Shown here: positions 1 to 21,278 of the stretch, one piece after another
Layout of the letters: each line of letters begins with the position of its first letter
Numbering within the stretch: position 1 is the first letter of the stretch
Source: a virus
Virus record (IMG/VR): IMGVR_UViG_3300042556_002563
Span: 1-61,904 of that record
Length of the DNA: 61,904 nucleotides
Direction: 5' to 3' (one strand)
Notes under the pieces: model-generated
The model's database searches: none
What the model saw: the letters and a program-made list of their open reading frames with translations, nothing else
What the model was told of the DNA's origin: nothing
Translations under genes and position numbers: made by a program

Positions 1-101
1 CCGTCAATGTAGACAACGCACGGCATCACATTGTGAATGTCGTAACCGCGCTCTTCACAGCGCTCGACAAGGTGGGAAAACAAACAACGTACAATACTCA
101 T
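1..101 (-). CDS. small conserved-looking protein, partial (runs off the left edge)
   Basis: The first 33 codons of a minus-strand gene begin with ATG at 101-99. The start overlaps the TGA stop of the cysteine-rich gene (98-100) as ATGA, a usual coupled start in this genome. The visible residues include ERCEERGYDIHNVMPCVVYID. I associate the pattern 'C..RGY....V..CVV..DG' with short uncharacterised proteins of phages and environmental bacteria, but that link is from memory. The 3' end is outside the window. Function unknown. Confidence 0.6.
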   Translation of the reverse strand, partial: MSIVRCLFSHLVERCEERGYDIHNVMPCVVYID

Positions 102-3100
102 GGTAGTGGATTTGCCGTAAATGGCTGTGGGCAGCCGGTCATATTGTCATCGAACACTCTGCCGTCCGCGAGATTACCGCCGGGAAGTGCGCACGCCTTT
201 TGCCACGGATGCGTGATGTTGTCGTCAAGGCCGTAAGATCGTGTTACAGAAACAAGCCGGCAGCACTTTGCGGGAATCAAAAATCCGTTATTTCCGATTG
301 TATCTTGCAGTCCCGCGCCGTCATCAGCCCAGTCGACCGACTCTTTAGCGAAAGATATTGAATTGAACGCGTCCTGTATTGTAGTTTGAATGTTTTGGCC
401 GCTGGTCGGCGGCGGTACTATTGTTTGCGGACATGTGCAAATATCAGTTCGTGCTTGCGAGTACCACTGATAAATGTATCGCGCGCTGCCGGCTTCCGCG
501 TAGCCGCATGTCTCCGCCATTGGCGGAACTGCAACGCCGTTGCGCTGATCCGCTAGGATATCGTCAAGATGGCGACAACGCAGAAACGCCGAACATTTGT
601 TTTGTGGCCCGCAAAAGCTGTAGCGGCCGCCATATTTCCACCCGGTGCCAAACCCAAGCGGCGTTAAATCAACGTTCGGCTGCCCATCAAAATCACAGGG
701 GAAATTAATCGCAGCGCAGTCGCACGTCTCGATAATTAGGACTTCCGTACGACAACGCGTTTCAAATCTTTTCGATTCCTCATAGATACACGCGGGCACC
801 GGCAGCATGGTCATAATTTTGTCGGAAATGTCTACGAGTTTTTTTCCGCGACAAACATAAAAAGACACACGCGAATGCCCTGAAAATTTATAGGTGTCGT
901 AGCCAACTGGCGCTTCTTCCGCGCTGTTCGCCCAGTTGTACGCGCCAGAGCGGTGCGTTCTGAATACATAGATATTTTCGTTTTGAATTAGGTCTGGATA
1001 GCACTCGTTCCAGCTAAACGTCGGTACTTTTCTGGCAGGATCTGGCGCACACGGAGTTTCGTACGTCGGAGTATAATCCCAGCGATTGACGCTGCCGTTG
1101 CCCGGGCCAATGCCACTGTTAGGAATGTTAAATAAAAATTCCCCGCCCGGAAATGACAAATTGCCGGGCCCGCCGATTGCAGCGAGCCGCGAGAAACACC
1201 GGTCCTGCAAGACCGATTGGCCGGACGGCGGCTGGTTGTAATAGATCGAATAGGTGTTGTTTATCAAGTTTGCGGCTTCATTGGGCGAGCCGCACTGACA
1301 CGGCGCAAATACGTCGTCGTCACAGCACGGGACAAATACTTTTGGATTGTCTTGCGGACAATTGGGTGTTTCCGCGCAGTTTTCATTGCCAGCGCCGCAA
1401 CAGGCGACGCGCATACTGCACTCTGGCACAGCGCCGGGAGCAATTGAGTGCGCGCCAGTGTTTGGATCAACTACAGCGTCGTAGCACAGCCCCTCGCACT
1501 TCGTGCAGGGATCGCTCACGTCGACAGTCGCGCAGCCAAAAACACCGGGACACACTTCTTTGCAGCATTTTTTAGCCCGGCAGATAACAGTGGCGCACGT
1601 GTCCCACGGTTTCCACTCCAGCGTCTCGTTTGCGGCTAAAGTCGCCAGCGCAACAAGATACTGCGCATATGTACTGATTCCGGGCTGGCAAACGCTCGCC
1701 ACGATAGTTGTGCCATCAGTCCCGAGCGTGGTCTTACAGGCGACGCCGCATTTGATCGCGTTTTCGGGACATGTCGGCGCCCACCGTTTGCCGGGGCTGC
1801 ATTCATTTTGGCATACGTTAATTCCGCCCTGTATGCAGCAGGCTGCTTTTGTGGCGCAGGTCGCGGGCTGCGTCAGATCTTCGTTTCCGGCGGCATCGAC
1901 TGTGTAACAGCGCCCGTTACAGGGCTGTAGACATTGTGCCGGGGGTACAACATCAAGACACTTGATTGAGCCGTCGGGGCACGAGCCGCAACAACGCTCT
2001 ACAGTGCAGTCGCGGGCCGTGCCGAACGGAATCCATATGGCCGTATTACCGAGACCGCCGCCCGCGGTATTTAACGCTTCGCACGCTGCGCGGCCAATGT
2101 TTTCTTGTGGCGGGCCGGGCACAGGGCCGGCGCCAATGTTGTTAGTGATGCAGCACACGCCGCACTGCTCTGGATCAATACACGCTTGGGACCATGCGTG
2201 CGTTGACGCTGTGCCGCAGCCATCGCCGCACCGAATGTTGTTCGGTCCGCAGCAATCCGACTTTGTTTTGCACGTTTTTGATTCATACGGTCTGGCAACA
2301 GTGCTGAACTCTGTGCAAATGCCTTTGCAGTTTGTTTGATTTGGCGCTACTGGTTTACAAGCGGCATGCGAGTATATTTGTTCAACGGGCTGGCCGTTTA
2401 TGTTAATTATTTTTTTGCATCTGGCCTCAACGCACGCTTGTTTTGTGTCGCCGCATACCGCACACGTAGCAAACTCGTGCCACACGCCATAATTTGCGGC
2501 CGTGCAATCTGCTCGATTATTTTTCGTGTCGTCACAGCTAAAGCTAATCGCGCCGCCGGGACCAACGTTTCTTTTACAGCAGACTCCGCATAAGTCTGGA
2601 TCTGCGCAATAGTGATCGGGTATGTCCTGCCAATGATATGTCGGTACAGTCGGGCTGGAGTCAGGACAGAAACCCGGCACTGGAATGCACTGTTCGTTTG
2701 ACGGCCCGCAGCAGTCGAATTTTGTCGCGCAAAACGAGTCAGATATTTGATCCCCTGTGGCGTCAATAGCGTAACATTCGTCGCGGCAAAAATCTGGGCA
2801 AACGCCGTTTTGTTTATCTACAGCAATACAGATTGTTTGGCCGGGGCACTCTACATCGTTGCAGCACGCCCGCGGAATACAGACTGCCGAAGCGCACGTT
2901 TCAAACGCTTTCCAGCTGGCGTTTGGGCGCGCAATACACTCTTCGTAGGTTATATTGTCAAGACACTCGGAGCTAACAGCGACGTTGGCGGCGTTTAACG
3001 TAAGCTGACAACACACGCCGCATTTAAATCCGTTTTCAAAACAGCCGCTCCACTCAAATGCTGGGCCCGGGCCCGGCGCCGGACAACCGCGGCACAGCGC

Positions 3101-5011
3101 GCCATCTACGCCACAACAGTCTTGTTTGGTTTTGCACAGTTTTTCGCCGGTCGTTTTATTGGCGCAGCGACCCTTACACGGATCGCATTCCGCTTCGATA
3201 TTTATATCAATACAGCCGACATCTTGCGGACAAGTTTCGCCGCAACATTTTTTTGTCCGACAATTAAACCCCTCACACGACAGCGCGAAAGCGTGCCAGT
3301 CATAAACAGCTCTAAACGTCGGGCTAAGAAAATCTGCTTCGGCTTCAGTTAAAACGCACGTTTGCCGCGTAACGTTGTTGTCAAAACATTGATGCGAAAA
3401 GTAAGACTCGGATCCGTTCGTTTGATTTATGCTGAATAACGTGCGGCAGCAAACGCCACATTCGTACGGATTTGCGCAACCGACTGCCCAGCGATGCGTA
3501 GGCAGAAGCCCGCAACCACTAGTGCAGTTGATGTCGTCCGGGCCGCAGCATGTGAAACGAGTAGCGCAAAATTCATTGCCGGTTGCTATCTCGGTACACG
3601 TGCCGTTACAGACATCGCAATCTTCAGGCGCAACGTTTACGCAAGTTGTGCTTGTGGCGCCGCTGGAACACACAACTTCGCGACAACACGGGACTGACTT
3701 ACAGGCAGCACACGTACCAAATGGCGTCCAAAACCCATATGCGCGATTTACACCGCTGGGTAACGTTATAAAACGCTCGCATACGGCTTTTGTTTCCGTA
3801 GTTCTATCGCAGACGATGTCGAGGTAGTTATTAATCGGGCTGTTTGGCGCGCCGGTTGTATCGTCCCAAATATACCGACAGCATATTCCGCACTTGTCGC
3901 CGTCTGATGCGCAGACGGGTTCCCACCTGTATCTTGCTGTCTGCTCGCCACACTGCGGCGTGCATTTTTCATTACCGTCGCCGCAGCAACCCTGTTTTGT
4001 TTTGCACTCAGAAACAGGGCAGAGCGTGGTGCTGGTTTCGCGCTTGACGTCGGTACAGCGGCCAAGACATGGGTCGCACGTTCTTTCCGAAGTAGGCGCG
4101 CACTCAATTTCTTTTTTGTCGCCGTACGTTCTGTTTTGGCAGCACGACGGGTTGCAGATATTTAGATTATCAGTCCCGGGGTGCCAAACACCCACGGGCA
4201 GCGGCGCAGGGTTGGGGAAAAACACTACCGTCAGCGCTTCGCACTCTTCTTTTGTTAAAGCGCGGGTGCCGGTTTTACTTAATGATTGCCGAAATGTCGG
4301 ACTTGCCGGGTCAGAATCATAATTATGAACGCAGCACACTGCACAATTTGTACACGGCATGGAGTCCCATTGGTTCGCCGGCGGAATGTCTGCTCTAGCC
4401 GAACCGGGGCCCGTTGGGTTTTCAACACACGTATAGGCGCAAGTAGTGTTATCTTCGGCGCAGCACTGCGTTTTTGTTGCGCAGATCATCGTCCGATCAT
4501 CAAAAATCTCATTGCCGGCGGCGTCGTACGTTCTGATAACACAGCGGCCTCTGCACTTGTCGTCATCTGTCGGTTGATGCGTCGGATAACACCGCACCTG
4601 TTCGCAGTCTGGTACTTGCTTGCACACGCATTCGTCGCCGCAGCAACACTGCTCGGGTTCCGCGTTCGGTGATCGACTGAGCCGTACTTTATTGTTCGAG
4701 TCGACGTTTCTTACAAGCCGGCCGTTTGACACAACGAGCGCAAGCGGTGGCGGATTGCAGTCGCGGCAGCATTCTTGAATTTCACCATACGGTACGTTTA
4801 CCGCAGCGCCTACGGCTGTGTAATACGTTACCGTACCGGTGCATTCGCCCGCCGTGATTGTTTCATCCTGCCCGCCCTGATTATCACCAATCGGTGTGCA
4901 CGTTCTTGTACCGACAATTGGTCCGCCATGTTCATCGTACCTAAAAACGCAGCACACCTTCGGCTGATCAGGCAGCACGAGCTGGGGCGGAATTTGACTG
5001 CAGCTAACCAT
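98..5011 (-). CDS. giant cysteine-rich repeat protein (1637 aa), probable virion or extracellular protein
   Basis: I do not recognise a named family. Residues about 30-1260 consist of roughly eight diverged repeats. Each carries a TK..CCG marker (near residues 180, 342, 487, 632, 765, 917, 1055 and 1203), a Trp-containing segment (RWEPVC, HRWAVGC, HAWSQAC, KRWAPTC), a CGVCC pair and a W..F..C segment (FWTPFGTC, VWHEFATC). The repeat starting near residue 342 has about 20 cysteines in roughly 145 residues. Residues about 1290-1637 form a different, less cysteine-rich C-terminal domain with aromatic, beta-type sequence. No signal peptide or membrane segment is seen at the N-terminus. The gene lies just downstream of the fibre cassette and cytidine deaminase, so a virion appendage or secreted product is my inference. 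The cysteines could form disulfides once outside the cell, or bind metal inside it. The reading frame is intact across 4.9 kb, which argues for function. Confidence 0.9.
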   Translation of the reverse strand: MVSCSQIPPQLVLPDQPKVCCVFRYDEHGGPIVGTRTCTPIGDNQGGQDETITAGECTGTVTYYTAVGAAVNVPYGEIQECCRDCNPPPLALVVSNGRLVRNVDSNNKVRLSRSPNAEPEQCCCGDECVCKQVPDCEQVRCYPTHQPTDDDKCRGRCVIRTYDAAGNEIFDDRTMICATKTQCCAEDNTTCAYTCVENPTGPGSARADIPPANQWDSMPCTNCAVCCVHNYDSDPASPTFRQSLSKTGTRALTKEECEALTVVFFPNPAPLPVGVWHPGTDNLNICNPSCCQNRTYGDKKEIECAPTSERTCDPCLGRCTDVKRETSTTLCPVSECKTKQGCCGDGNEKCTPQCGEQTARYRWEPVCASDGDKCGICCRYIWDDTTGAPNSPINNYLDIVCDRTTETKAVCERFITLPSGVNRAYGFWTPFGTCAACKSVPCCREVVCSSGATSTTCVNVAPEDCDVCNGTCTEIATGNEFCATRFTCCGPDDINCTSGCGLLPTHRWAVGCANPYECGVCCRTLFSINQTNGSESYFSHQCFDNNVTRQTCVLTEAEADFLSPTFRAVYDWHAFALSCEGFNCRTKKCCGETCPQDVGCIDINIEAECDPCKGRCANKTTGEKLCKTKQDCCGVDGALCRGCPAPGPGPAFEWSGCFENGFKCGVCCQLTLNAANVAVSSECLDNITYEECIARPNASWKAFETCASAVCIPRACCNDVECPGQTICIAVDKQNGVCPDFCRDECYAIDATGDQISDSFCATKFDCCGPSNEQCIPVPGFCPDSSPTVPTYHWQDIPDHYCADPDLCGVCCKRNVGPGGAISFSCDDTKNNRADCTAANYGVWHEFATCAVCGDTKQACVEARCKKIININGQPVEQIYSHAACKPVAPNQTNCKGICTEFSTVARPYESKTCKTKSDCCGPNNIRCGDGCGTASTHAWSQACIDPEQCGVCCITNNIGAGPVPGPPQENIGRAACEALNTAGGGLGNTAIWIPFGTARDCTVERCCGSCPDGSIKCLDVVPPAQCLQPCNGRCYTVDAAGNEDLTQPATCATKAACCIQGGINVCQNECSPGKRWAPTCPENAIKCGVACKTTLGTDGTTIVASVCQPGISTYAQYLVALATLAANETLEWKPWDTCATVICRAKKCCKEVCPGVFGCATVDVSDPCTKCEGLCYDAVVDPNTGAHSIAPGAVPECSMRVACCGAGNENCAETPNCPQDNPKVFVPCCDDDVFAPCQCGSPNEAANLINNTYSIYYNQPPSGQSVLQDRCFSRLAAIGGPGNLSFPGGEFLFNIPNSGIGPGNGSVNRWDYTPTYETPCAPDPARKVPTFSWNECYPDLIQNENIYVFRTHRSGAYNWANSAEEAPVGYDTYKFSGHSRVSFYVCRGKKLVDISDKIMTMLPVPACIYEESKRFETRCRTEVLIIETCDCAAINFPCDFDGQPNVDLTPLGFGTGWKYGGRYSFCGPQNKCSAFLRCRHLDDILADQRNGVAVPPMAETCGYAEAGSARYIYQWYSQARTDICTCPQTIVPPPTSGQNIQTTIQDAFNSISFAKESVDWADDGAGLQDTIGNNGFLIPAKCCRLVSVTRSYGLDDNITHPWQKACALPGGNLADGRVFDDNMTGCPQPFTANPLP
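1230..4920 (-). repeat. about eight diverged ~145-codon cysteine-rich repeats inside one gene
   Basis: The TK..CCG markers fall about 133-162 codons apart along the gene. Between markers the order is always CCG, then C...CG, a Trp segment, CGVCC, a W..F..C segment, paired CC, and C..C.G.C before the next marker. The DNA repeats are too diverged to look like recent tandem duplication, and the protein pattern is conserved mainly at Cys, Trp and Gly. The last unit (KVFVPCC region) is shortened. Confidence 0.75.
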
Positions 5012-5019
5012 ATCAGCAC

Positions 5020-5412
5020 CTAGAACGGGCGCGGCAGCAGTTCTTGTAGTTTAAACGCGCCAACACCGTCGACAATAATATCAGAATCGCCAGTGCTGAA
5101 TTCTTGCATAAACTGCAGGCACGCGCCACACGGCATAAAGCTTTTTACGGGCATGTCGTGCGCATCAACTACGGCTATTGCTATTTTTACAAGCTGCCGG
5201 CAATTTTCGCTAGCAGCTTTACAAATAGCTACTCTTTCGGCGCAGATAGTTAAGCCAAAAGACGCGTTTTCGACGTTACAGCCTGTATAAATCTCGGCTG
5301 ATTCTGCAAAAAGCGCCGCGGCCCCAACCCGGAATTTAGAGTACGGCGAATAGGCCGCGAGAGCTGCTTTACGCGCTACGTCGACGAGAATGTCAGCGGC
5401 AATGTCGCGCAT
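5020..5412 (-). CDS. cdd: cytidine deaminase
   Basis: This enzyme hydrolyses cytidine or deoxycytidine to uridine or deoxyuridine in the salvage pathway. The 130-residue length fits the homotetrameric, zinc-dependent Cdd class. Visible motifs are the substrate-binding CNVENASFG (45-53), the catalytic CAE (C57, E59) and the zinc ligands in PCGAC (C95, C98). All catalytic residues are present. ATG at 5412 follows the stop of the preceding gene by 6 nt. It sits at the end of the fibre cassette, away from thymidylate kinase, the only other nucleotide gene in the window. The likely role is feeding deoxyuridine toward dTMP synthesis. Family assignment is secure; the exact substrate (C, dC or dCMP) is inferred. 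Confidence 0.93.
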   Translation of the reverse strand: MRDIAADILVDVARKAALAAYSPYSKFRVGAAALFAESAEIYTGCNVENASFGLTICAERVAICKAASENCRQLVKIAIAVVDAHDMPVKSFMPCGACLQFMQEFSTGDSDIIVDGVGAFKLQELLPRPF

Positions 5413-5418
5413 AATACA

Positions 5419-5694
5419 TTACAAATTCTCTGGCGCTCCCAGCGGCATAAAGGCGCCTTCCGGGGCGTTAATATCTTCCCGGAAAACATACCCAATACCA
5501 GCGTAATTTACACGGTAAGGAGTGCCGCCATGCCTGTGCGCACCGTTCTGGGTGTTATAGCTCGTACGACGGCATTTCTGCCCGCGGAACTCGCCGTAGT
5601 GTTGTTCCCAGTCAATGCCGCCTTCGCCCTCGTCCTTGCCGACGATGACTTCTGTGACAATGTTGTTCTCGTCCAAAAATGCGTAGTGCGCCAT
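5419..5694 (-). CDS. small tail-associated protein of the MAHFA..DENN type (91 aa)
   Basis: The N-terminus MAHYAFLDENNIVTEVIVG closely matches that of the gene at 13139-13501 (MAHFAQLDENNIVTQVIVV), so the two are paralogs. Both also share a central Tyr/Gly-rich section ending in GIGYVF or GVGFVY. Small proteins with this opening are common next to fibre genes in marine and freshwater phages, and their function is unknown to me. I place the start at ATG 5694, behind a good ribosome site (TTGGAGCTAACC). The longer open frame upstream overlaps the glycine-rich gene and is not needed. It is likely a minor structural or fibre-assembly protein. Confidence 0.8.
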   Translation of the reverse strand: MAHYAFLDENNIVTEVIVGKDEGEGGIDWEQHYGEFRGQKCRRTSYNTQNGAHRHGGTPYRVNYAGIGYVFREDINAPEGAFMPLGAPENL

Positions 5695-5696
5695 GG

Positions 5697-6578
5697 TTAG
5701 CTCCAAGTAACGGTGCCGGTGCCTGCGGTGATGGTCAGCACCGCGTCTGTGCCAACTGTGGTGCGCGTGGCAGTCAATCCAGCTGAGAGCTTGGCGACTG
5801 CCTGCGAGGCGTTCCATCGCAGGATGACTATGCCCGAGCCTCCGTTGCCACCTGTGCTGCTCGCCGTGCCGTTGCTCGCGCCGCCACCGCCACCGCCGCC
5901 AGTGCCTGCTGTACCTGCTGTGCCTGCTGTCGCAACAGCGGACGACCCTGCGCCGCCGCCGGTTAGCCCGCCAGAGCCAGCCGTTGACGTGCCGACATAC
6001 GCCCCGCCGCCTCCGCCGCCACCGTAGAAAATAGTCACGCCCGTGATTGCGGACGCTCTGCCGATTCCGCCGTTGCCAGCCACCGACGCTGTGGCGTCTG
6101 AACCAGCGGCACCGGCACCGCCGCCGCCACCGGGAGACGTTGCGTTGTTAACGCCCTGACCTCCGGTGTTGCCTTGGAGCGATATGAGGGATGCCATACG
6201 AGTCAGAAACGCATTACCGGCACCAGAGGCACCTGTGGCCCCGATGCTGCCTCCAGTATTGCTCGCGCTGCCGCCGAGCGCGACGATTGAGCCGAACACA
6301 GATATGACTCCGTTTGTCGATGACGAACCCCCTGCGCCACCAGCACCGATCTGTACAGAATAGTTCGTCCCAAGCGTGACACCGATGTTTTGCTCAACGA
6401 CGCCCCCGCCTCCACCACCGCCGGGGGCGCGGTCATTGCGGAGGCCAGCCGCCCCACCACCACCGGCAATAATCAATGCTTGCACTGCGAGCAACTTCCG
6501 CGCGTCTGCCACGCCGCTAAACGGCCCTTGCACGGGCGTGACAATCTGCCCGCCTAATCCATAGATGCCGGGGTTCAT
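5697..6578 (-). CDS. glycine-rich tail fibre tip / adhesin (293 aa)
   Basis: Residues about 35-245 are very rich in Gly with Ala and Ser, in runs such as GGGGGGG, spaced by short hydrophobic segments (LIIAGGGG, VSVFGSIVALGG). This resembles the polyglycine-rich distal adhesins of T-even-like phages, where glycine helices present variable recognition loops. The end contains IVILRWN, which also closes the glycine-rich region of the 863-residue fibre (VVIIKSQ) at 13504-16095. A short C-terminal beta-rich segment follows. The start ATG overlaps the upstream stop as TAATG at 6578, so translation is probably coupled. Role inferred: receptor contact or fibre tip. Confidence 0.8.
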   Translation of the reverse strand: MNPGIYGLGGQIVTPVQGPFSGVADARKLLAVQALIIAGGGGAAGLRNDRAPGGGGGGGVVEQNIGVTLGTNYSVQIGAGGAGGSSSTNGVISVFGSIVALGGSASNTGGSIGATGASGAGNAFLTRMASLISLQGNTGGQGVNNATSPGGGGGAGAAGSDATASVAGNGGIGRASAITGVTIFYGGGGGGGAYVGTSTAGSGGLTGGGAGSSAVATAGTAGTAGTGGGGGGGASNGTASSTGGNGGSGIVILRWNASQAVAKLSAGLTATRTTVGTDAVLTITAGTGTVTWS

Positions 6579-6961
6579 TACAGGTCAGCCCCCAAGGCAG
6601 TCACATGCGTGGCCTGCGAGACTGACGTTGTGACTCGCACCGACCAAGCGGCAGACGGCAGAATCAGGTTGTTGTAGGTGTTTGATACGCGAGTCTGCTG
6701 CACAGTCGCCGAGCCAGTTGCGGCAGCCACGGTGATCTCATCAAAGTGCCAGTGCGTGCTGCCGTCATAAAGAAAAATACGCACAATAGCCGCAGCACTT
6801 GTTGCGGCGCACTTTACGACGATTTCAGCAATACGTGTGCCAGTAGCGGCGCCAGTGATTAAAGTGCCCGCGCTAGTTGGCGCCGTATAGCTACCGTCAG
6901 CTGTAGCAATAGAAACAGCGCCAATTCTGGGGGTTACTGCAAATTGCGGGGCTGTTGCCAT
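6578..6961 (-). CDS. small beta-rich virion protein (127 aa)
   Basis: The sequence is Ala/Thr/Ser-rich with alternating hydrophobic residues, as in a beta-sandwich: GSYTAPTSAGTLITGA, then IAEIVVKC and IVRIFLYDGS. The paralog-like gene at 8521-8892 shares the layout (start, TLL.GA-like segment, variable strand, VRLYN), with weak identity. I associate this fold pattern with small phage decoration or appendage proteins, but cannot name the family. ATG at 6961 follows AAGGAACAATC, a good ribosome site. It lies inside the fibre cassette and is translationally coupled to the glycine-rich gene downstream. Confidence 0.8.
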   Translation of the reverse strand: MATAPQFAVTPRIGAVSIATADGSYTAPTSAGTLITGAATGTRIAEIVVKCAATSAAAIVRIFLYDGSTHWHFDEITVAAATGSATVQQTRVSNTYNNLILPSAAWSVRVTTSVSQATHVTALGADL

Positions 6962-6970
6962 GATTGTTCC

Positions 6971-7261
6971 TTAACGAAAATTGGCCCAGAGATAAAGATT
7001 CATAGCAGCTTGTGCGTTGCCAGATAACCGCGCGTCAGCCACAGTGCCGCTAATGATATCTTCTCCCGCATGAGTATGCGAGCTAGCTGCGGCTCCAATA
7101 TCGCTGGCTGTAAGCGCGTCTACACCGCCAGTAGCGTGCGTCGAGGCGTGCGCCGCTACGCCGCTGGAAAAATCCCACGTTGTACCAGACCATGTATACA
7201 CACGCCCGTTTTGAGTGCTTTGCTGCCCTGTCGTTGGGCTGGACGGGAATGAAAGTGGCAT
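6971..7261 (-). CDS. short fibre module with 'MPLSFP' head (96 aa)
   Basis: The head MPLSFPSSPTTGQQSTQNGR is one of four copies of a module shared with the genes at 10216-10398, 10404-11591 and 12240-13127 (pattern P.SP..GQT.T.NGR.W.W.G..W). The rest, HATGGVDALTASDIGA and SHTHAGEDIISGTV, is typical of phage fibre shaft sequence (GGxDALT, ADIGA). The gene probably encodes a small fibre or a fibre adaptor. A 42-nt spacer with no visible gene separates it from the downstream gene. Confidence 0.78.
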   Translation of the reverse strand: MPLSFPSSPTTGQQSTQNGRVYTWSGTTWDFSSGVAAHASTHATGGVDALTASDIGAAASSHTHAGEDIISGTVADARLSGNAQAAMNLYLWANFR

Positions 7262-7303
7262 AGTTATTTCTCTGTAACTTTAAAACGCATGCAAGTCATA
7301 CCA

Positions 7304-7729
7304 TTAAATTCCAGCCGCTTCAACAAACGCCTGATCGACCTGCGACTCATCTAGGCCGAGCGCGGCCGCAAGCGGCACCAGCATTGGGTGTGACCGCTCC
7401 ACATACGGAGCGTACTCCCACTCCACTCGCGCAGAGTCTCGCTGTAGTTCGTCCGGGATTGCGTCGATAGCAGCATCGACTGCCGCCATCGGCACGCCAT
7501 GACGAATCAGCCAGAGGCGTATCTGGCGTGCTGACACTGTCGCAGGCGTAGGCTCTGGTGGCACGATGTCATCCTCTGGCGTCCGCTCGGTGACGACGAA
7601 TCCTGAAGCAGCGAGGGCTTCTGAATCGTGCGCCCATTGCTCTGGGTTGGTGCGCGTGCTGCCGTCAGGCAGGCGAACACGCCACGGGAGTGGTTCTATG
7701 CGGCCGGTCAAAGTGTTGCGGTAGATCAA
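7304..7729 (-). CDS. tail-fibre-associated protein, possible assembly chaperone (141 aa)
   Basis: The N-terminal half reads like a small fibre-associated protein (RIEPLPWRVRLPDGSTRT, then EALAASGFVVTERTP). The C-terminal half is helical (SARQIRLWLIRHG, DAAIDAIPDELQR, LAAALGLDESQVDQAF). Phage tail-assembly chaperones often show this order, hence the tentative call. The start appears to be TTG at 7729, right after the upstream TGA, with GGGGTGA a few bases upstream as ribosome site. Its position between two adhesin genes supports a fibre role. Confidence 0.7.
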   Translation of the reverse strand: MIYRNTLTGRIEPLPWRVRLPDGSTRTNPEQWAHDSEALAASGFVVTERTPEDDIVPPEPTPATVSARQIRLWLIRHGVPMAAVDAAIDAIPDELQRDSARVEWEYAPYVERSHPMLVPLAAALGLDESQVDQAFVEAAGI

Positions 7730-7732
7730 TCG

Positions 7733-8521
7733 TCACCCCGGAAAAGCGGTTGTTGGTGCTGTAAAGTTTGCGACGTAGCGCGCTGAACCGGAACCTTTTG
7801 TGATGCGCACATCGTCAATGTTTCCATTGACGCTCCACGCCGCGCCATCCTGCGAGGAGCCGCCGATATTCAGCGCACCCTGCGCGTAGTTGGTAGAGTT
7901 GCCGGTGACCGTTGAACCAATCTGAGTGCCATCGACAAATGCCCGAATTGATCCGCCGGACCGCGTGACGGCAAGGTGATACCACACGTTGGCAGACGGT
8001 GCCCACGATGCCGTGAGTTGATTTGACGAGCGATTGCTCAGAACGAGAGTATTGGCAGGTGTGCCAAAAAACGAGCCGGAAGAACCATTGATGTAAAGCG
8101 AGAATCCACCGCTTGCCGCGACATTAATAAACGTATGCTGCACGGTCGGCGCAGATGCAAAACGCACAAACATCTCAACCGTAAAATCGCCGGTGCCCAT
8201 TGACCACGCAGCGTCAGACGCGGCATCAATTCTGTCAGCGTTTCCGTCCAGCAAAAGCGATCCAGAGCCAAATTTTGTCTGTAGCGTGCTTGTCTGAGCG
8301 TTGCCAATGGCCGTAAATGCTTTTGGGGCGCTGCTGCTGTCGTTGAGATTTCCGTCTAGGTGGAGCAGCAAAACCACACTGCTAAAAAGCGAATCCATTC
8401 CGGGCCATGTGCCCGCGCGCCTTGCAGACTCCACTTCGCCCAGTTGCCACACGCCCGGCGCGGCGAGCGTTGTTGGCACAACTCGCTTGCCAATTACTCC
8501 TCCTGTTCTGCTCGCGGGCAT
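7733..8521 (-). CDS. LamG/concanavalin-like adhesin (262 aa)
   Basis: Residues about 50-260 carry the LamG-like jelly-roll pattern: VVLLLHLDGNLNDSS, FGSGSLLLDG, DFTVEMFVRF, WYHLAVTRSGG.IRAFVDGTQIG and a final NIDDVRITKG.ARY. Such domains bind sugars and often form phage receptor-binding heads. Homologous domains occur in the genes at 10404 and 13504. I choose ATG 8521, which overlaps the upstream stop as TAATG; the longer open frame would overlap the neighbour heavily. A basic N-terminal stretch (SRTGGVIGKRVV) may attach the head to the virion. Confidence 0.82.
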   Translation of the reverse strand: MPASRTGGVIGKRVVPTTLAAPGVWQLGEVESARRAGTWPGMDSLFSSVVLLLHLDGNLNDSSSAPKAFTAIGNAQTSTLQTKFGSGSLLLDGNADRIDAASDAAWSMGTGDFTVEMFVRFASAPTVQHTFINVAASGGFSLYINGSSGSFFGTPANTLVLSNRSSNQLTASWAPSANVWYHLAVTRSGGSIRAFVDGTQIGSTVTGNSTNYAQGALNIGGSSQDGAAWSVNGNIDDVRITKGSGSARYVANFTAPTTAFPG

Positions 8522-8892
8522 TACGCGACCTCCTCGTAGGAGCAGAACACGGTGAGGTCGTTTGCTGCCGATGCCTGCACGGTAATGCGACGGTCCTCCT
8601 CCAGCCACAGCGACGAGTCGCGGCCCAAGACAACGATGGCAGCGCCTGCGGGTACGGTCATGGTGCGGGCGATCTGAAACGCTGTGCCTGCACTGGCTGC
8701 GTTGTAAAGTCGCACAGTTGCGTCAACAGTGTTTGTGCCGTTGACGTTGGACAACAGGAGTGCCGTGAGCCGCAGCGCCCGGTTGCTGCTGGCGGCATTG
8801 GTCAACAGCGCGGTTTCGCTTGTGTTGGCGGGCGTGACATACACCGTCCTGCCGGTGATGCTTGTCGGTGCGGCGAGATTGGGTGCGGCCAT
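8521..8892 (-). CDS. small beta-rich virion protein (123 aa)
   Basis: The sequence shows alternating hydrophobic beta segments (RTVYVTPANTSETALLTNA, LRLTALLLSN, ATVRLYNAA, TMTVPAGAAIVVLG, ITVQASAANDLTVFCSYEEV). It resembles small phage proteins found beside fibres and looks distantly related to the 127-residue gene at 6578-6961. Its stop is fused to the ATG of the LamG gene (TAATG), so the two are probably made in step. Function unknown; structural role inferred from context. Confidence 0.78.
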   Translation of the reverse strand: MAAPNLAAPTSITGRTVYVTPANTSETALLTNAASSNRALRLTALLLSNVNGTNTVDATVRLYNAASAGTAFQIARTMTVPAGAAIVVLGRDSSLWLEEDRRITVQASAANDLTVFCSYEEVA

Positions 8893-8898
8893 TATTTG

Positions 8899-9753
<855 letters not shown>

Positions 9754-9782
9754 TACAAACTCGAAAAATCAATTGCCAGTGT

Positions 9783-9965
9783 TTACGTTACTTCTCCGCC
9801 GTCAGCAATCGAGTAGTCGAGCAAATTTACAACGGTATTTTCATCCGTTTTTACAAAAACGTTGCCGTCCGTAGTGTTGATTGCAATTTCGCCCACGACA
9901 AGTTGCGCCGGGGTTGGAGCCGCGCCCTGTGTGGTGTTTTTTTTCTGCAAAATGATATTGTACAT
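9783..9965 (-). CDS. short fibre bead protein, paralog 1 (60 aa)
   Basis: The sequence aligns with the proteins at 9993-10211 and 16101-16358: a charged opening (LQKKNTTQGAAPT), then QL..GEIA.N..DG..F.K and a final ADGGE. This looks like a stand-alone bead of the Mtd-N-like module without shaft or tip. I choose ATG 9965 because it aligns with the starts of the paralogs; an ATG six codons upstream is possible. Probably a small virion component. Confidence 0.72.
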   Translation of the reverse strand: MYNIILQKKNTTQGAAPTPAQLVVGEIAINTTDGNVFVKTDENTVVNLLDYSIADGGEVT

Positions 9966-9992
9966 GCTCGTTATCATCCGCAAAGTAATAAA

Positions 9993-10211
9993 TTACGGCA
10001 CTACTATTTCGCCACCGTCGGCCACCCGCGGCTGCCGTATTGATATGATAACCTGATTTTCCGTAGCTGTGCCGGCTGTTGGGTCATCCAAACTTTTCAG
10101 AAATACGTCGCCGTCTGCGCCGTTTACAGCAAATTCTCCAAACTGCAGCGCCGTTACCGTAGGCGCTGCGCCAGATGTTTCGTTGCGCCTGTGCACAATT
10201 TGTACAGCCAT
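9993..10211 (-). CDS. short fibre bead protein, paralog 2 (72 aa)
   Basis: MAVQIVHRRNETSGAAPT opens the protein, followed by ALQFGEFAVNGADGDVFLK and a final PRVADGGEIVVP. It is clearly the same family as the genes at 9783-9965 and 16101-16358. These appear to be isolated copies of the bead that is fused to collagen-like shafts in neighbouring genes. Spacing to both neighbours is short, so it is likely co-transcribed with the fibres. Confidence 0.75.
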   Translation of the reverse strand: MAVQIVHRRNETSGAAPTVTALQFGEFAVNGADGDVFLKSLDDPTAGTATENQVIISIRQPRVADGGEIVVP

Positions 10212-10215
10212 AATT

Positions 10216-10398
10216 TCACCAGAGTGTTATGCACACACGCTCAATACAACAGCGCATCGCGGCCTGCCCAGCCCGTGCCGCTACCACGCCAGCGGCGACG
10301 AGTTCCCAGACGTTGTTGCCTGCGTAAGCGTACTGCCTGCCGTTTTGCGTGGAGGTCTGGCCGACAGTGAGGTTAATTGTGGGAAAGCTGAATGGCAT
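10216..10398 (-). CDS. truncated 'MPFSFP' fibre head module (60 aa)
   Basis: The first ~35 residues (MPFSFPTINLTVGQTSTQNG, then YAGNNVWELVAA) match the head of the FN3 fibre at 12240-13127 almost word for word. The sequence then departs into a short cysteine-containing tail (RCCIERVCITLW) and stops, without the FN3, LamG or collagen parts found in the other copies. Another frame of the tail reads SGTGWAGRDALLY before a stop, so a frameshifted remnant is possible. It may be a minimal head protein or a broken copy left by recombination in the cassette. Confidence 0.55.
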   Translation of the reverse strand: MPFSFPTINLTVGQTSTQNGRQYAYAGNNVWELVAAGVVAARAGQAAMRCCIERVCITLW

Positions 10399-10403
10399 GC
10401 GTG

Positions 10404-11591
10404 TTACTCCGTGGGTGGCGTGAACGTGGTGCCGTCTGGGTAGCGGCAGGCGTTGGTGACGCGGAAGTCATCGATGTAGCCGTCAAACCACCTGCCGCCG
10501 CCAAAGCCGCCGACATACATTACGTTATCAACGGACGCAGCTATCTGTGACCTCGGCCCATACGGCAAGCTGTTGTGCGCCTCAACGCCGTCTACATAGA
10601 TGCGGTGCGTTGTGCCCTGCTTCACAAAAGCGATGTGATGCCACTCAGACCGCGACGGCATCGGAAAACTCAGGTTTGTACCATCGCTCACGGACATCGT
10701 AGGTGGATTCGAGCCTCCTTCAAGAATCATAAACTGACCTCCACCGGCTATTTCTGTCCTCCACAGGCACGAATCTGGCTTGATTAGAAATCCATAACAG
10801 CCAGACGTGCATGGGTTGAAATACGCCCAGCATTCGACGGTAAAGTCGCTGGAAAAGTTCGGCACGCCGTTGGCGATTGCGATGCCGCCGTAAGAAAAGT
10901 TTGTCGCACTGCCGGTGCCGTACTTTTTCACGCTTGTTGTGACGGCAGTTGCATTGAGCGTCGTGATGGTCTTGGGGCTTTGCGACGAGTCAGTGAACGT
11001 CTGCGAGCCGTTTGAGCCGTTCATTCGCAGATAGGCTACGACGCTGCTCGCAAAAGCGTCAGACACAGGCGTCGAGGTTGCGGTGCTGCTCCACGCACCT
11101 TGACCGACTCCGTTTACCGCTGCCACGCGAAACACATACGCCGTGCCGTTGTTCAAGGAAGTGACAGTCGCGCTTGTGGTCGCAGAAGTCTCATCACTGA
11201 ATGTCGTCCACGTCGACCCTGAGTCCGACGAATACTGGACGATGTAATCTGTGACCGGGGCTTGTGCAATCATGCCGGTCGGCGCTGTCCACGACACGGC
11301 AGCCTGCGCGTTGCCAGCCGTCGCTGTTACGCCGGTTGGTGCGGATGGCACAAACAAGGCCCGCAGCACAGCGTCGGCCCCGCCAGTCGCGGACAAGACG
11401 CCGTCAGCGATTGACAGGCCCGAGCCGACCTTCACTCCGCCTAGCGTTGACTCCGAAGCAGTCGGCAACTGGAACGAGCCGCCACCACTCGCCGCGACGA
11501 GTTCCCACGCCGCGCCGCTCCATGACCAAGTGCGTCCGTTGGCAGTGTAGGTCTGGCCTACAGTTGGTGATGCTGGTGGTGTCAGTGGCAT
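10404..11591 (-). CDS. fibre with head module, fibronectin III and LamG-like domains (395 aa)
   Basis: Domains in order: head (MPLTPPASPTVGQTYTANGR, 1-35); a short linker typical of fibres (ESTLGGVKVGSGLSI, about 42-65); fibronectin III (about 84-175: [33 protein letters not shown]); LamG-like jelly roll (about 178-395: VVAYLRMNG, DFTVECWAYF, WHHIAFVKQGTTHRIYVDG, YIDDFRVT). The FN3 domain is very close to that of the fibre at 13504-16095. ATG 11591 follows TAGGAG at a good distance. Likely a receptor-binding fibre. Confidence 0.85.
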   Translation of the reverse strand: MPLTPPASPTVGQTYTANGRTWSWSGAAWELVAASGGGSFQLPTASESTLGGVKVGSGLSIADGVLSATGGADAVLRALFVPSAPTGVTATAGNAQAAVSWTAPTGMIAQAPVTDYIVQYSSDSGSTWTTFSDETSATTSATVTSLNNGTAYVFRVAAVNGVGQGAWSSTATSTPVSDAFASSVVAYLRMNGSNGSQTFTDSSQSPKTITTLNATAVTTSVKKYGTGSATNFSYGGIAIANGVPNFSSDFTVECWAYFNPCTSGCYGFLIKPDSCLWRTEIAGGGQFMILEGGSNPPTMSVSDGTNLSFPMPSRSEWHHIAFVKQGTTHRIYVDGVEAHNSLPYGPRSQIAASVDNVMYVGGFGGGRWFDGYIDDFRVTNACRYPDGTTFTPPTE

Positions 11592-11701
11592 GTGCTAACT
11601 CCTACGCGATTCTCAGTGTGGCAGTTACGCGGGTCGCTTGCTGTATATGAGGGCAGGGTGCCGATTGTGCCGCAGATTAGGAATTCGATTAAGTGTTTCA
11701 C
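11582..11701 (-). CDS. possible small protein between fibre and oxygenase genes (39 aa)
   Basis: A short frame starts at GTG 11701, overlapping the oxygenase stop as GTGA, with GGAG seven bases upstream. It runs to TGA at 11584-11582, overlapping the next gene by 10 nt. The product opens VKHLIEFLICGTIGTLPSY. It would fill the otherwise empty 106-nt gap, and its coupled start matches local style. No homology is recognised and the frame is short, so it may be chance. Confidence 0.3.
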   Translation of the reverse strand: MKHLIEFLICGTIGTLPSYTASDPRNCHTENRVGVSTCH

Positions 11702-12240
11702 GTCGCACTCCAAGCAGCCGGATCGACCATGAATCGCCAAGACCAGACGACTCGCCTGACGTTGCCATTGACTTGGGAAACGCCGTGAATCTGTTCCGAC
11801 AGAAGATAGGCCAGCGCGTCTCCTTCCCGCTGCTCTCGCTCCACGCCGTCAACGCTCACTACGCCGCCTGACGCTGGAGCGGAAAGCAATGTGTTCACGC
11901 CGACACACACCAGACCATCCTGCCGGAAATGATGATCAACGTGTTCTGCAAACTCGCCGCCGGGGAGTAGAACACCAACCGTCATGCCGTCTAGGAATCG
12001 CGGCAGCGAGACCCCCAGCATCGGGAACCGCTCCCTGATACGGCTCTGCACCTGATAGGCGACTTCGGGGAATCCGCCAGCCTCCACCACCGCGTTGCTG
12101 TTGGAGATTTGACGCAACAAATACGACTCGCCGTCCGCAGTTCTTGCGTCTCCGAGGCACGCCGCATTGGTGTCGCACCACGCCAGCAGTGAGGCTCGTT
12201 CGCTCTCGCTAACAAAATTGCTTAGAAGAATAACGCTCAT
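11698..12240 (-). CDS. 2-oxoglutarate/Fe(II)-dependent oxygenase, prolyl-hydroxylase-like (180 aa)
   Basis: This family couples decarboxylation of 2-oxoglutarate to hydroxylation of a substrate, often a protein side chain. The Fe(II) ligands are visible as H-x-D in EHVDHHF (near residues 99-101) and the distal His in IHGVSQVNG. An Arg ten residues after that His (NVRR) can bind the 2-oxoglutarate carboxylate. The distal motif H.V..V..G.R....W is like the PKHD/YbiX and P4H branch. Such genes recur near structural genes of cyanophages and other aquatic phages. Here it sits inside a cassette of collagen-like and FN3 fibres, and its start is fused to the stop of an FN3 fibre (TAATG). Modification of fibre Pro, Lys or Thr is my inference; the substrate is not shown. 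Confidence 0.88.
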   Translation of the reverse strand: MSVILLSNFVSESERASLLAWCDTNAACLGDARTADGESYLLRQISNSNAVVEAGGFPEVAYQVQSRIRERFPMLGVSLPRFLDGMTVGVLLPGGEFAEHVDHHFRQDGLVCVGVNTLLSAPASGGVVSVDGVEREQREGDALAYLLSEQIHGVSQVNGNVRRVVWSWRFMVDPAAWSAT

Positions 12241-13127
12241 TAGTTGCAGTCCTGTTGCAGAGTGAATGACGCAAACGGCCCCGTCCCAACGGCATTGACG
12301 GCAGCAACTTGGAACGAGCCGGTGGGCGCGTGGCTGCTGACGAACCCGCCGGTATAAGAGCCTGCTGGTCGAGAGCCGCTAGACGGAGCAACACTGGTCG
12401 TCGCGCCGCTGCCGATTCGCCAAACGTATCCGGTGATTTCCGAACCGCCGTTAGAAGCCGGCGCGTTCCACATAGTTGAGTTAGTCGAACATCCCCAGTA
12501 GTTGTCGGCATTTCGCAGTGAAGTCGGAGCATCAGGAACGCTCGCCGAATTCGGCGTAACGGCACTGCTCGCCGCCGAGTAGCTGCCCGTTCCGATGGCA
12601 TTCGTTGCTGAGACGCGGAAGACATACGGCGTGCCGTTGGTGAGCGAAGTCACAACCACACCACTCGTCGCGGTCGATGCCGCCCGAGTGAACGTTGTCC
12701 ACGTTGAGCCGCTGTTGGAACTGAACTGAACGGTGTAGTCCGTTATTGGAGTGACAGAAAGAACGTTTGGCGCAGTCCACGCGAGCGACACCTGCGCGTT
12801 GCCCGCTGTGGGCGTCACACTCGTCGGCGCAGCCGGGGTGAACAACGCCCGCAACTCAGTGTCGGTGCCGCCGCCACTCACACCCGCCTCGATGTAGGCA
12901 CCCTGCCAGATGTAGGCGCGAGCCGTGTCCGTAGCGAGGTACAGCGTGCCCGACGATCCGGTCGCGGGAAATCCTGCGACCGTCGCTGCGGTGACGATGC
13001 TGCCCGAGCCCCCGCCGCCGCTCGCCGCGACGAGTTCCCAAGTGTTGTTGCCTGCGTAGCGGTACTCGCGCCCGTTTTGTGTGGACGTTGCGTTGAGTGC
13101 TGGGGATGCTGGAAAGGAAAATGGCAT
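12240..13127 (-). CDS. fibre with head module and two fibronectin III domains (295 aa)
   Basis: Order: head MPFSFPASPALNATSTQNGR (1-35); a bead segment FPATGSSGTLYLATDTARAY (about 48-68), also found in the 863-residue fibre; FN3 number 1 (about 85-180: APTSVTPTAGNAQVSLAW, GTPYVFRVSATNAIG); FN3 number 2 (about 182-290: ITGYVWRIGSG, SFQVAAVNAVG). The end LQQDCN has no LamG domain, unlike the relatives. I choose ATG 13127, preceded by AGGAAACTACGCC; a longer open frame upstream overlaps the neighbour. The TAATG overlap couples it to the 2OG oxygenase. Confidence 0.85.
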   Translation of the reverse strand: MPFSFPASPALNATSTQNGREYRYAGNNTWELVAASGGGGSGSIVTAATVAGFPATGSSGTLYLATDTARAYIWQGAYIEAGVSGGGTDTELRALFTPAAPTSVTPTAGNAQVSLAWTAPNVLSVTPITDYTVQFSSNSGSTWTTFTRAASTATSGVVVTSLTNGTPYVFRVSATNAIGTGSYSAASSAVTPNSASVPDAPTSLRNADNYWGCSTNSTMWNAPASNGGSEITGYVWRIGSGATTSVAPSSGSRPAGSYTGGFVSSHAPTGSFQVAAVNAVGTGPFASFTLQQDCN

Positions 13128-13138
13128 GGCGTAGTTTC

Positions 13139-13501
13139 CTAGTTCTGCGGCGTTACTTCGGCCCACGCCAGCGTCGTCTCGTCCCAGCGATACAGTTTGC
13201 CATCAGTCGGCATCGGCGTTGGCGGTTGCCAGTCGTGATTCGCGTCGCGCGACCACGACGGAAAAGGCGACGGCGATACAAACACATCCGCCGGCGATTC
13301 GTAAACAAAACCAACGCCCGCGAACTGCTTGCGAATTTTGCCGCTGTAGCTCGTTTGAATCCAGCGACCGCCAAACAGCGCCTGACAGAAAGCGATCCCC
13401 TTGGCCTCGCTCTCTGTGCCGTTGTCGAGCAGTTCGTCGTTGTTGACAACGATTACTTGCGTGACGATGTTGTTTTCATCCAGTTGTGCAAAGTGTGCCA
13501 T
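13139..13501 (-). CDS. small tail-associated protein of the MAHFA..DENN type (120 aa)
   Basis: MAHFAQLDENNIVTQVIVVNN opens the protein. FAGVGFVYESPADVFVSP in the middle and GKLYRWDETTLAWAEV at the end follow the pattern of phage proteins encoded next to tail fibres. It is a paralog of 5419-5694 but about 30 residues longer at the C-terminus. Function is not established; structural or assembly role inferred from position between two fibre genes. Confidence 0.82.
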   Translation of the reverse strand: MAHFAQLDENNIVTQVIVVNNDELLDNGTESEAKGIAFCQALFGGRWIQTSYSGKIRKQFAGVGFVYESPADVFVSPSPFPSWSRDANHDWQPPTPMPTDGKLYRWDETTLAWAEVTPQN

Positions 13502-13503
13502 GA

Positions 13504-16095
13504 TTAAAACGTGATGCTCCCTGAACCCGTGAACGTGTAGATGACGCTGCCGCCGCTGTTGGTTACCACGGGGCTTCCAGTTGTCGCAGTTGCAGCGGAC
13601 TGCGACTTGATGATCACCACGCCGCTTCCGCCAGCAGCACCGGAGTCGCCGCCTGCGCCCTGCCCAGAGTTTGCCGTGCCAGCAGCCCCAGCCGAGTTAG
13701 CGCCGTTAACTGGCGTGACCTGATCCGCCCCCACCGAGATGCCAGCACCGCCGCCGGAAAAATACCGCGTGCCAGAGTAGAGGACGCCGACGCTAGCCGC
13801 TGCCGCGAGCGTGCTGTACGAGCCAACACCGTCGCCGCCAGCGCCAGCGGTGCCGCCGGATGCGTTTCCGCCAGCACTCGCCGCACCACCGCCGCCGCCA
13901 GAGCCACCAGAGCCGAACGGCCCCGTACCGTTGCCACCGCTAAATCCTTGACCGCTTGTTCCGCTGCCGCCATACGATCTCTGGTCCGTGGTAAATCCGC
14001 AGCCGCCGCCGCCGCAGCCTCCGTCTTTGCCTTGATAGTTACCGCCAAACGATCCGCCGCCACCACCGCCAACGGCAGCGGCCAGAAGGCTGGCGAACGA
14101 GGAGTTTGTGCCGCTTGTGCCGGGAGAGTTTGAGTCAACGCTCGCGCCACCGCCGCCCACGGTCACGGTGTACTGCACGCCGGTCGAGTAGGCCACAGCA
14201 GATGAGTAGACCACGCCGCCGCCTCCGCCAGCGCCACCGACAGACGTGCCAGAGCCGCCTCCGCCAGCCACGACGAGAACCTCCAGACCGCTAACAGGCA
14301 TGACGGAACTACTCGCCGCCGAATACGCCCCCGTGCCCACGCCATTCACCGCCGCCACGCGAAAGGTGTACGCGGTGCCGTTGGTCAGGCCGGTGACAGT
14401 GGCGGAGGTAGACGTTGAAGTACTATCCGAGAACGTAGTCCAAGTTGACCCAGAGTTGCTCGAATACTGCACAACGTAATCGGTGACGGGAGCCTGTGCG
14501 ATCACGCCAGTAGGGGCAGTCCATGACAACACTGCCTGTTCGTTGCCGGGGGTCGCTGAGACGTTGGTCGGCGCGGCTGGCACAAGCAGCGCACGCAGTC
14601 CCGTGTCCTCACCAGCGCCGGCCGCGCCTCCGCCCGATACGCCAAGCTCGATGTAAACGTCGGACGCATCCCACCGATATAAACGACTTACATTAGTAGC
14701 GATATACAACGCGCCACTTTCACCGGTGGCAGGAAAGTTCGCCGCTGTAGCGTATTCGTAAACAGCGGCGGATGAGCCGGTGATGGTGACGGGCAGAGTC
14801 TGCGGCGATGGCTGGAGAAGCGTCGTCGGCAGCGCGGCAGTCGGCGGCGTGTGATTCGCGGTGTAGCGAGCCGCTTTCGTGACGCGGAGTTCTGCAATGC
14901 GGCCGTTCCAGTAGTTGGCGTCAAGCTCCGTATATGTGCGGCCGACAACCACGCTGGACTGACCGTGCGAGCCGGTTGCAGAGACACTGCCGACAGAAGT
15001 GCCGTTGACGTAGTAATTCACTGTGCCGCTGAGACGAACGGCGGCTAGATGAACCCACTGTCCTGTTGGCAGGAGCGCCGACCCCTGAATGTTCGCGCCG
15101 CCGGGGTGCATCAAAAACGGGTAGCCGGTGTTCGTCACGCCTATCGACACGCCGTAAGAAGAGCCGTCGCTGACATATGTCGAAAAGTACGAACCGTAGG
15201 TGCCGTAGGCAGTCAGCCATACCCACGCTTCAGCCGTCCAGTCGCTCGTTCCCCACGAAAAGTCACTGCTTGACAACGACAGGTAGTCGCCCGTCCCATC
15301 CAACGCAATAGAGTTGGTGCCATACTTGCCCGCCGCGTTCGCCGCTGCGTTACCGTGGGCCGTCAGTGTGCGACCGTACTTGGACGCGTCCGTGAGGTTG
15401 CCGTCGCCGCGCAGCAGCAGCAGCACGTTGTCCCAATAGGGATCGGTGCCCGGGATCGTCACGCTGCCCGAGAGCGAGCCGGAGCCGCCGCCACCCGAGC
15501 CACCTCCGCCTGTAGCCGCTAATACGCCGTCAGTGATAGTCAAGCCGGAGCCAATTTTAATACCGCCAAGCACTGTATCACTTGCAACTGGCAACGTATA
15601 GCTCGGGCCGGTCGCGCCTGTAACGCCTGCCGTACCCTGCGGGCCCGTTGCCCCCGTTACGCCATCAACCCCAGTAGCGCCTGTAACGCCAGCAACTCCG
15701 GTAGCGCCTGTAACGCCATCAACCCCAGTAGCGCCTGTAACGCCATCAACCCCAGTAGCGCCTGTTACACCAGCAATACCAGTTGCGCCTGTAACGCCAT
15801 CAACCCCAGTAGCGCCTGTTACACCAGCAATACCAGTTGCGCCTGTAACGCCAGCAACTCCGGTAGCGCCTGTAACGCCAGCAGCCCCCGCCGCGCCAGC
15901 AACACCAGTAGCGCCTGTAACGCCCGCAACACCAGTAGCCCCGGTTACCCCCGTGGCGCCTGAACCAGCCGACAACGCCGCAATATCCGCGAGCGTGACT
16001 TTATTTGTGGCCGTGCCGGCCGCATTACTTACCGGAACAACACTTGTGCCGACGGCTGCAGCACTCGGCAGTTCAGATATCTTAATGTCGGCCAT
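13504..16095 (-). CDS. large modular tail fibre: collagen-like, LamG, FN3 and glycine-rich domains (863 aa)
   Basis: Domains in order: an N-terminal fibre segment ([20 protein letters not shown], 1-45), close to the N-terminus of the fibre at 21279-21965; a collagen-like tract of GATGV.GVT units (about 46-165); a fibre linker ([20 protein letters not shown], about 170-192); a LamG-like domain (about 215-420: [36 protein letters not shown]); a bead ([20 protein letters not shown], about 445-475); FN3 (about 495-590); and a glycine-rich tip (about 592-830), ending in a beta segment ([16 protein letters not shown]). It combines the tips of four other genes in the cassette. Trimeric receptor-binding fibre is the likely role. 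Confidence 0.87.
15640..15960 (-). repeat. 27-nt tandem repeat coding for collagen-like [10 protein letters not shown]
   Basis: The DNA repeats a 27-nt unit about a dozen times, seen on the plus strand as variants of 'gcgcctgtaacgccatca' and 'accccagtagc'. Each unit encodes three Gly-X-Y triplets. Several neighbouring copies are identical over most of their length, which would favour copy-number change by slippage or recombination. The third Gly-X-Y triplet varies between G-V-D, G-V-A, G-I-A and G-A-A. Confidence 0.85.
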
Positions 16096-16100
16096 CGCGT

Positions 16101-16358
16101 TTACTCCACCGTAATGTATTCGCCAGTGTGCGTGACAATACTGTCGCCGGTATGCGTTTGTAGTTTAGCGCCCGGCGCAAGAATTTCACCGCCGTCGAGC
16201 ACTGTGATTTGGTTCAAACAGACAATTGCGCCGCTTGTTGTTTTTGTAAACCACTTCTTGTCGGCCAGATTAACGGCGATTTCACCTACCGTCAACTGCC
16301 CGGCCGAGGGTACTGCCCCCGGTACCGTGCTTTTTTTATGGACAAGCGTAATCGCCAT
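16101..16358 (-). CDS. short fibre bead protein, paralog 3 (85 aa)
   Basis: [20 protein letters not shown], then [19 protein letters not shown] and [10 protein letters not shown] match the two other stand-alone beads (9783-9965 and 9993-10211). A further repeat-like tail, [20 protein letters not shown], contains two copies of THTG[DE]. It sits between two large fibre genes with 5-nt spacers on both sides, so it is surely co-expressed with them. Confidence 0.8.
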
Positions 16359-16363
16359 TGTTA

Positions 16364-17869: not shown

Positions 17870-17886
17870 GTGAGCACCTCAAAAGT

Positions 17887-21257: not shown

Positions 21258-21278
21258 AGCACGACTTTACGGCGGTAA

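Follow-up and report, generated by a model that had tools for sequence, protein, structure and literature searches.

A widespread phage gene pair around a giant cysteine-rich repeat protein, a candidate disulfide-stabilised tail adhesin with a small partner

Introduction

One end of the window, which is the entire 61,904-base virus record, carries a single long gene for an extremely cysteine-rich protein (P0001). The locus raises the question of what such a protein does for a phage, whether its cysteines form disulfides or hold metal, and whether it acts alone. The original prediction, made from this DNA only, had described a lone protein and had left a new kind of virion fibre, a surface coat and a secreted effector as candidates. 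In this study, the repeats, relatives, selection and gene neighbourhood of P0001 were investigated.

Results

Gene layout and internal repeats

The predicted frame of 1637 residues at 98 to 5011 is real, but it lies on the minus strand, running from an ATG at 5011 to 98 over 1637 codons. The internal repeats of the protein are far beyond chance; when it was compared with itself in chunks of 150 aa, matches elsewhere in the protein reached E values down to 4.6e-25. The repeat region spans aa 122 to 1228, and the expected set of about eight repeats resolves into seven complete units and a partial eighth. The complete units measure 127-168 aa and contain 20, 20, 20, 20, 20, 16 and 18 Cys, close to the 20 per unit that had been proposed, and the TK..CCG, Trp, CGVCC and W..F..C marks are present as described. 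Cys makes up 13.2% of the repeat part as against 6.6% and 5.6% outside it, that is, in aa 1-121 and aa 1229-1637, the latter being without self-match. This separate C-terminal domain, the NPLP end of the protein and an overlapping second gene had all escaped the original prediction. The features are as follows.

98..5011, minus strand: Cys-rich giant protein P0001, 1637 aa, 177 Cys (open reading frame; orthologues in contigs G018 and G019)
4649..5011, minus strand: N-terminal region, aa 1-121, 'LVVSNGRLVR...RLSRSP' and then CCC (alignment; conserved in both orthologues)
4145..4648, minus strand: repeat unit 1, aa 122-289 (self-comparison and Cys alignment, as for units 2 to 7)
3689..4144, minus strand: repeat unit 2, aa 290-441
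3248..3688, minus strand: repeat unit 3, aa 442-588 (within AlphaFold2 model ma1094742708c)
2867..3247, minus strand: repeat unit 4, aa 589-715 (within the same model)
2435..2866, minus strand: repeat unit 5, aa 716-859
1994..2434, minus strand: repeat unit 6, aa 860-1006
1568..1993, minus strand: repeat unit 7, aa 1007-1148
1328..1567, minus strand: partial repeat unit 8, aa 1149-1228 (self-comparison)
101..1327, minus strand: C-terminal non-repeat domain, aa 1229-1637, proposed variable tip (no self-match; counterpart unalignable between G018 and G019)
101..112, minus strand: C-terminal tetrapeptide NPLP (end alignment with the orthologues)
1..101, minus strand: beginning of the partner gene, MSIVRCLFSHLVERCEERGYDIHNVMPCVVYID..., truncated at the edge of the contig (match to P0012, the partner in G018)
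5020..5412, minus strand: cytidine deaminase immediately upstream of P0001, a neighbour outside the pair (Pfam PF00383, E 1.4e-17)
5419..21965, minus strand: tail-fibre cassette with collagen-like, LamG-like, Gly-rich and fibre proteins (PHROGs)

The second gene begins at 101 on the minus strand, shares an ATGA overlap with the stop codon of P0001 and runs for 33 codons to the contig end. The fragment aligns with P0012 over 28 aa at 54% (E 1.7e-5, obtained against a small set).

Searches for known relatives

No relatives of P0001 were detected in Pfam, PHROGs or PDB sequences, by tblastn against 50,697 cultured phage records, or by rare peptide patterns. EGF, VWC, metallothionein and other known Cys-rich families, a significant match to which would have placed the protein in a known family, gave no profile match in Pfam at E ≤ 1 and none among PDB sequences. 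The structure prediction that had been suggested as a check produced a fairly confident, beta-rich AlphaFold2 model of two units (pLDDT 87.5), for which Foldseek returned nothing significant in the PDB (E ≤ 0.001) or in BFVD. The view that P0001 belongs to no known phage family is thus supported by these searches. Among the DNA patterns tried, CKTKxxCCG retrieved from genome contigs bacterial proteins with 'EMKRCKTKGLCCGAGG', which look like CCG-domain Fe-S oxidoreductase subunits and are unrelated to P0001; CCG...CGVCC matches in viral contigs were mostly chance, with one contig real, and a further scan with CATKxxCCG brought no additional orthologue.

Lineage and orthologues

The P0001 lineage is one of uncultured phages of about 200 kb. 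A DNA polymerase search gave 17 related contigs, several of them of about 200 kb, and those that were read are colinear with the window as far as the fibre cassette. None of these 17 records holds a match to P0001, which marks it as an accessory gene; in G014, a near relative, the contig breaks off exactly within the deaminase gene, before the P0001 position. Orthologues were found by DNA motif scans in two genomes, G018 (193,815 bp, syntenic with the window throughout, DNA polymerase 73% identical) and G019 (199,845 bp), and the P0001-type repeat was seen in these three genomes only.

L287:3744-8966, minus strand: G018 orthologue, 1740 aa, 241 Cys (motif scan, alignment)
L301:3683-8896, minus strand: G019 orthologue, 1738 aa, 235 Cys (motif scan, alignment)

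Each orthologue has ten complete repeats and occupies the same position as in the window, with fibre genes ahead of it and the partner gene and then thymidine kinase downstream. In G018, a collagen-like fibre gene precedes the orthologue, in the position of the deaminase. Copies of the deaminase itself occur right at the edge of the G014 contig (94% identical, L019:2-211) and beside thymidine kinase in another relative, G009 (48%, L036:17316-17660). In several other relatives, which lack the giant gene, only short Cys-containing proteins of the form ..VINGLLRVAGCGGP...CCCPPCEC stand before thymidine kinase (L024:15798-16253, L030:15801-16256 and L027:15977-16477, all minus strand), and by eye these resemble aa 90-130 of the giant.

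Cysteine pattern

Alignment of 27 repeat units shows 19 conserved Cys columns, and a majority of the units contain 20 Cys. Columns C16 and C18 are lost jointly in all four units that have lost either, and C14 and C17 are jointly lost in one unit, unit 7. Since three of the four C16-C18 losses concern the orthologous first unit, they amount to about two independent events. Losses in pairs fit disulfides better than metal clusters, without proving them, and disulfides are favoured for these repeats on the indirect evidence of the alignment; of the "disulfide- or metal-rich" protein first envisaged, the former half has gained ground and the latter has lost it.

Selection and the variable C-terminal end

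Comparison of G018 with G019 gave 82-98% identity in each 150-codon block of the N-terminal and repeat parts, at pN/pS values of 0.03-0.15. Such ratios indicate strong purifying selection on the repeats and thus a protein that selection maintains, as its open 4.9-kb frame had suggested. Near aa 1520, identity drops to 40-45%, and pN/pS at the C-terminus is about 0.5. At the DNA level, L287:3645-4415 is the sole unalignable stretch in 11 kb; it covers the C-terminal ~225 aa and a short intergenic gap, and its flanks are 93.4% and 83.8% identical. We propose that these ~225 aa form a hypervariable tip; the picture of a conserved shaft with a hypervariable distal end comes from one orthologue pair. 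Despite this variability, the proteins of the window, G018 and G019 all end in NPLP.

Tail-block context

PHROGs confirm the predicted tail-fibre cassette, although the cytidine deaminase gene intervenes between it and P0001. It is in the cassette that the lineage varies: the core genes upstream are colinear in relatives, and matches of cassette genes there are mostly confined to low-complexity parts. Across the loci with a partner gene, the two genes that precede the Cys-rich one encode, where a PHROG function is known, tape measure, baseplate, fibre and other virion proteins, and downstream of the partner exonuclease or phosphoesterase genes predominate. The pair therefore closes the tail block. 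Other proteins found directly upstream of partners carry an FGE-sulfatase domain or PATR repeats. FGE-sulfatase is a fold that diversified phage adhesins use. The product of L540:7065-10730 (plus strand), which combines this domain (E 1.8e-19) with long Ser-Thr runs, is likely a phage adhesin, judging from its domain content. At L469 and L517, the upstream Cys-rich proteins have very long serine runs directly after the CCC motif.

The partner family

P0012, directly after the Cys-rich gene of G018, has no meaningful Pfam or PHROG match. Its motif IVGWL[RK]EEA occurs in at least 120 IMG/VR stretches, a sample which, being drawn by this single motif, favours conserved partners. After simple ORF calling, and with partners whose cores reached 90% identity treated as redundant, 41 non-redundant loci were obtained, of which 32 had an upstream gene that could be called. 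Cys reaches at least 5% in 29 of these 32 upstream genes versus 18 of 348 other genes (p 8e-28). What was first treated as a lone protein is thus, by the gene-linkage counts, a member of a wider pair. Length and sequence vary widely among the upstream Cys-rich proteins. Some share NGxLV..CCC-type starts similar to the N-terminus of P0001, and position, composition and tag are common to them and P0001, but they have no significant repeat homology, the P0001 repeat halves matching nothing above noise among them. The family was not found in the collection of cultured phages searched, nor in 149 Planctomycetota genomes or 8 bacterial genomes (a scan run without positive control), and literature searches gave no description of such a pair. 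It is apparently a widespread and undescribed phage gene pair of a Cys-rich protein and a small partner.

A confident model of the partner (m9b26725cdfdc, pLDDT 93) shows a small alpha/beta N domain, a proline-rich linker and a helical C domain. The N part is far less conserved than the C part (majority fraction 0.22 vs 0.74), and Foldseek with the whole chain found nothing in the PDB at E ≤ 0.001. In the helical domain, a CxC at the helix start is present in 51/51 sequences and a third Cys in 50/51 (A2 alignment columns of C105, C107 and C122 in the first row, the P0012 fragment); these cysteines also occur at loci whose upstream protein has only a modest Cys content.

The NPLP tag

An NP[LF]P end was recorded in 11 of the 32 upstream genes against 0 of 324 others (p 2.5e-13). 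Out of 13,257 ORFs across 4.9 Mb, 25 with distinct ends finish in NP[LF]P, and all but two of them, the window counted, are a Cys-rich gene beside a partner. The tag also follows the type of partner N domain, as it ends the upstream protein at 19 of 25 loci with an 'RC..RGY..DEV..C' N domain and at none of 36 loci with another N domain; the other six of the 25 end in the near-variants YPLP, NPFL, NTFP, SPLP (twice) and NELP. All four NPLP codons vary synonymously while the peptide is constant, and the tag is present without gene overlap (L287, genes 103 nt apart) and with other stop/start arrangements. Selection therefore acts on the peptide, and an origin of NPLP in an overlap constraint or a Shine-Dalgarno signal was rejected on the same grounds. 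On a tree built from the conserved domain of the partner, N type appears to have switched about 15 times and the tag about 14 times, with good support for only 3 of these switches; in a tree-corrected test nearly all switches are concordant, with p 0.25 on 3 supported switches.

Discussion

We consider that P0001 is probably a disulfide-stabilised virion tail adhesin with an exchangeable tip and an assembly partner that is Tfa-like, though not recognisably Tfa-related. Disulfide-cross-linked modules of ~145 aa would build a long shaft, with the disulfides present in the mature particle, and the shaft would end in a fast-changing, exchangeable C-terminal tip that would bind the host for recognition, followed by the conserved NPLP terminus. 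The small downstream gene would supply a dedicated assembly partner, acting, by analogy with fibre chaperones, through a variable N-terminal domain that recognises the C-terminal end of the fibre, NPLP included; beyond a linker, its conserved helical C-terminal domain would oligomerise.

Other explanations differ in where the protein works and in what its cysteines do. It is very improbable that P0001 is a soluble effector or toxin against the host or competing microbes: Cys-rich repeats broadly resemble the repeats of secreted toxins and the gene is accessory, but no signal peptide was seen, the gene stands at the end of the tail block, a long repeat shaft carries an exchangeable tip, and adhesin-type domains take the same position in other phages. 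Tail context, purifying selection, the hypervariable tip and the missing signal peptide speak for the virion fibre or surface protein originally suggested, and we infer a location in the virion; the secreted effector named with it has become less likely. A metal-loaded protein, cytoplasmic or virion, whose repeats bind zinc or iron-sulfur with no disulfides, would suit the apparent lack of a signal peptide, the reducing cytoplasm and the CxC, CC and CxxCC motifs. It is nonetheless quite improbable, as Cys losses come in pairs and not in fours, no His is found among the conserved columns, and no metallothionein or zinc-finger family was matched.

The role of the partner leaves more room. Tag and partner N-domain DNA are adjacent and may move together, so that physical recognition of NPLP is something we infer. 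Instead, the partner start and the last upstream codons could be a recombination block for adhesin swaps, with NPLP hitchhiking and no interaction taking place; contiguity in DNA and the mere three supported independent switches agree with this, yet the peptide stays while its four codons vary synonymously, near-variant ends keep its pattern, and it is retained where the genes are ~100 nt apart or differently arranged, which leaves hitchhiking rather unlikely. The partner might also be a virion component, a tip or adaptor, and not a transient chaperone, a somewhat unlikely possibility that the results fit no worse than a chaperone, given that some fibre chaperones remain in virions, in phages Mu and Ur-lambda (cited in PMC9608196). 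There is, finally, a slim chance that the partner reads NPLP via an exchangeable N domain and catalyses or proofreads disulfide formation in Cys-rich adhesins through its CxC and third Cys; if true, this would be a phage-encoded, tag-guided oxidative-folding system for virion proteins made in the reducing cytoplasm.

If P0001 is indeed a tail adhesin with an assembly partner, uncultured phages would gain a widespread class of unannotated proteins with a probable role in host recognition. Homology searches fail on proteins as diverse as these adhesins, but IVGWLREEA together with NPLP finds them; that the partner was not found in the cultured phages searched would explain why the pair was overlooked. 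It also raises the question of how ~20 Cys per 145 aa are folded in the bacterial cytoplasm, with or without help from the partner.

Comparison with known systems

Eukaryotic EGF, VWC and complement FIM modules likewise place many candidate disulfides in each small module and occur in tandem arrays, but P0001 has no Pfam or PDB match to them, nor a Foldseek PDB match at E ≤ 0.001. The collagen-like and Gly-rich fibres of the same cassette are neighbours with similarly long low-complexity shafts; unlike P0001, which has no PHROG, they contain few Cys and belong to known PHROGs. As with phage tail fibres, P0001 is encoded in the tail gene block.

The nearest likeness is to Tfa-type pairs (Mu Tfa, Pam3 gp24-gp25, T4 gp37-gp38), in which a fibre or adhesin gene closes the tail block, a small gene adjoins and the distal fibre end is variable. 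In Tfa chaperones, the variable N domain binds the fibre and the conserved helical domain oligomerises (PMC9608196). The partner is built in the same order, from a variable N domain through a linker to a conserved helical C domain, and it lies beside a candidate fibre or adhesin gene. A Pfam-A comparison of 51 partner sequences, with E values up to 0.5 admitted, listed 23 families, none of them a Tfa family, and whole-chain Foldseek at E ≤ 0.001 gave no PDB match to the Tfa N-domain fold (TfaMu 5YVQ, Pam3 gp25); we therefore term the partner Tfa-like in its working and not a Tfa. What distinguishes the present pair from Tfa-type systems is its Cys-rich shaft and the conserved C-terminal NPLP.
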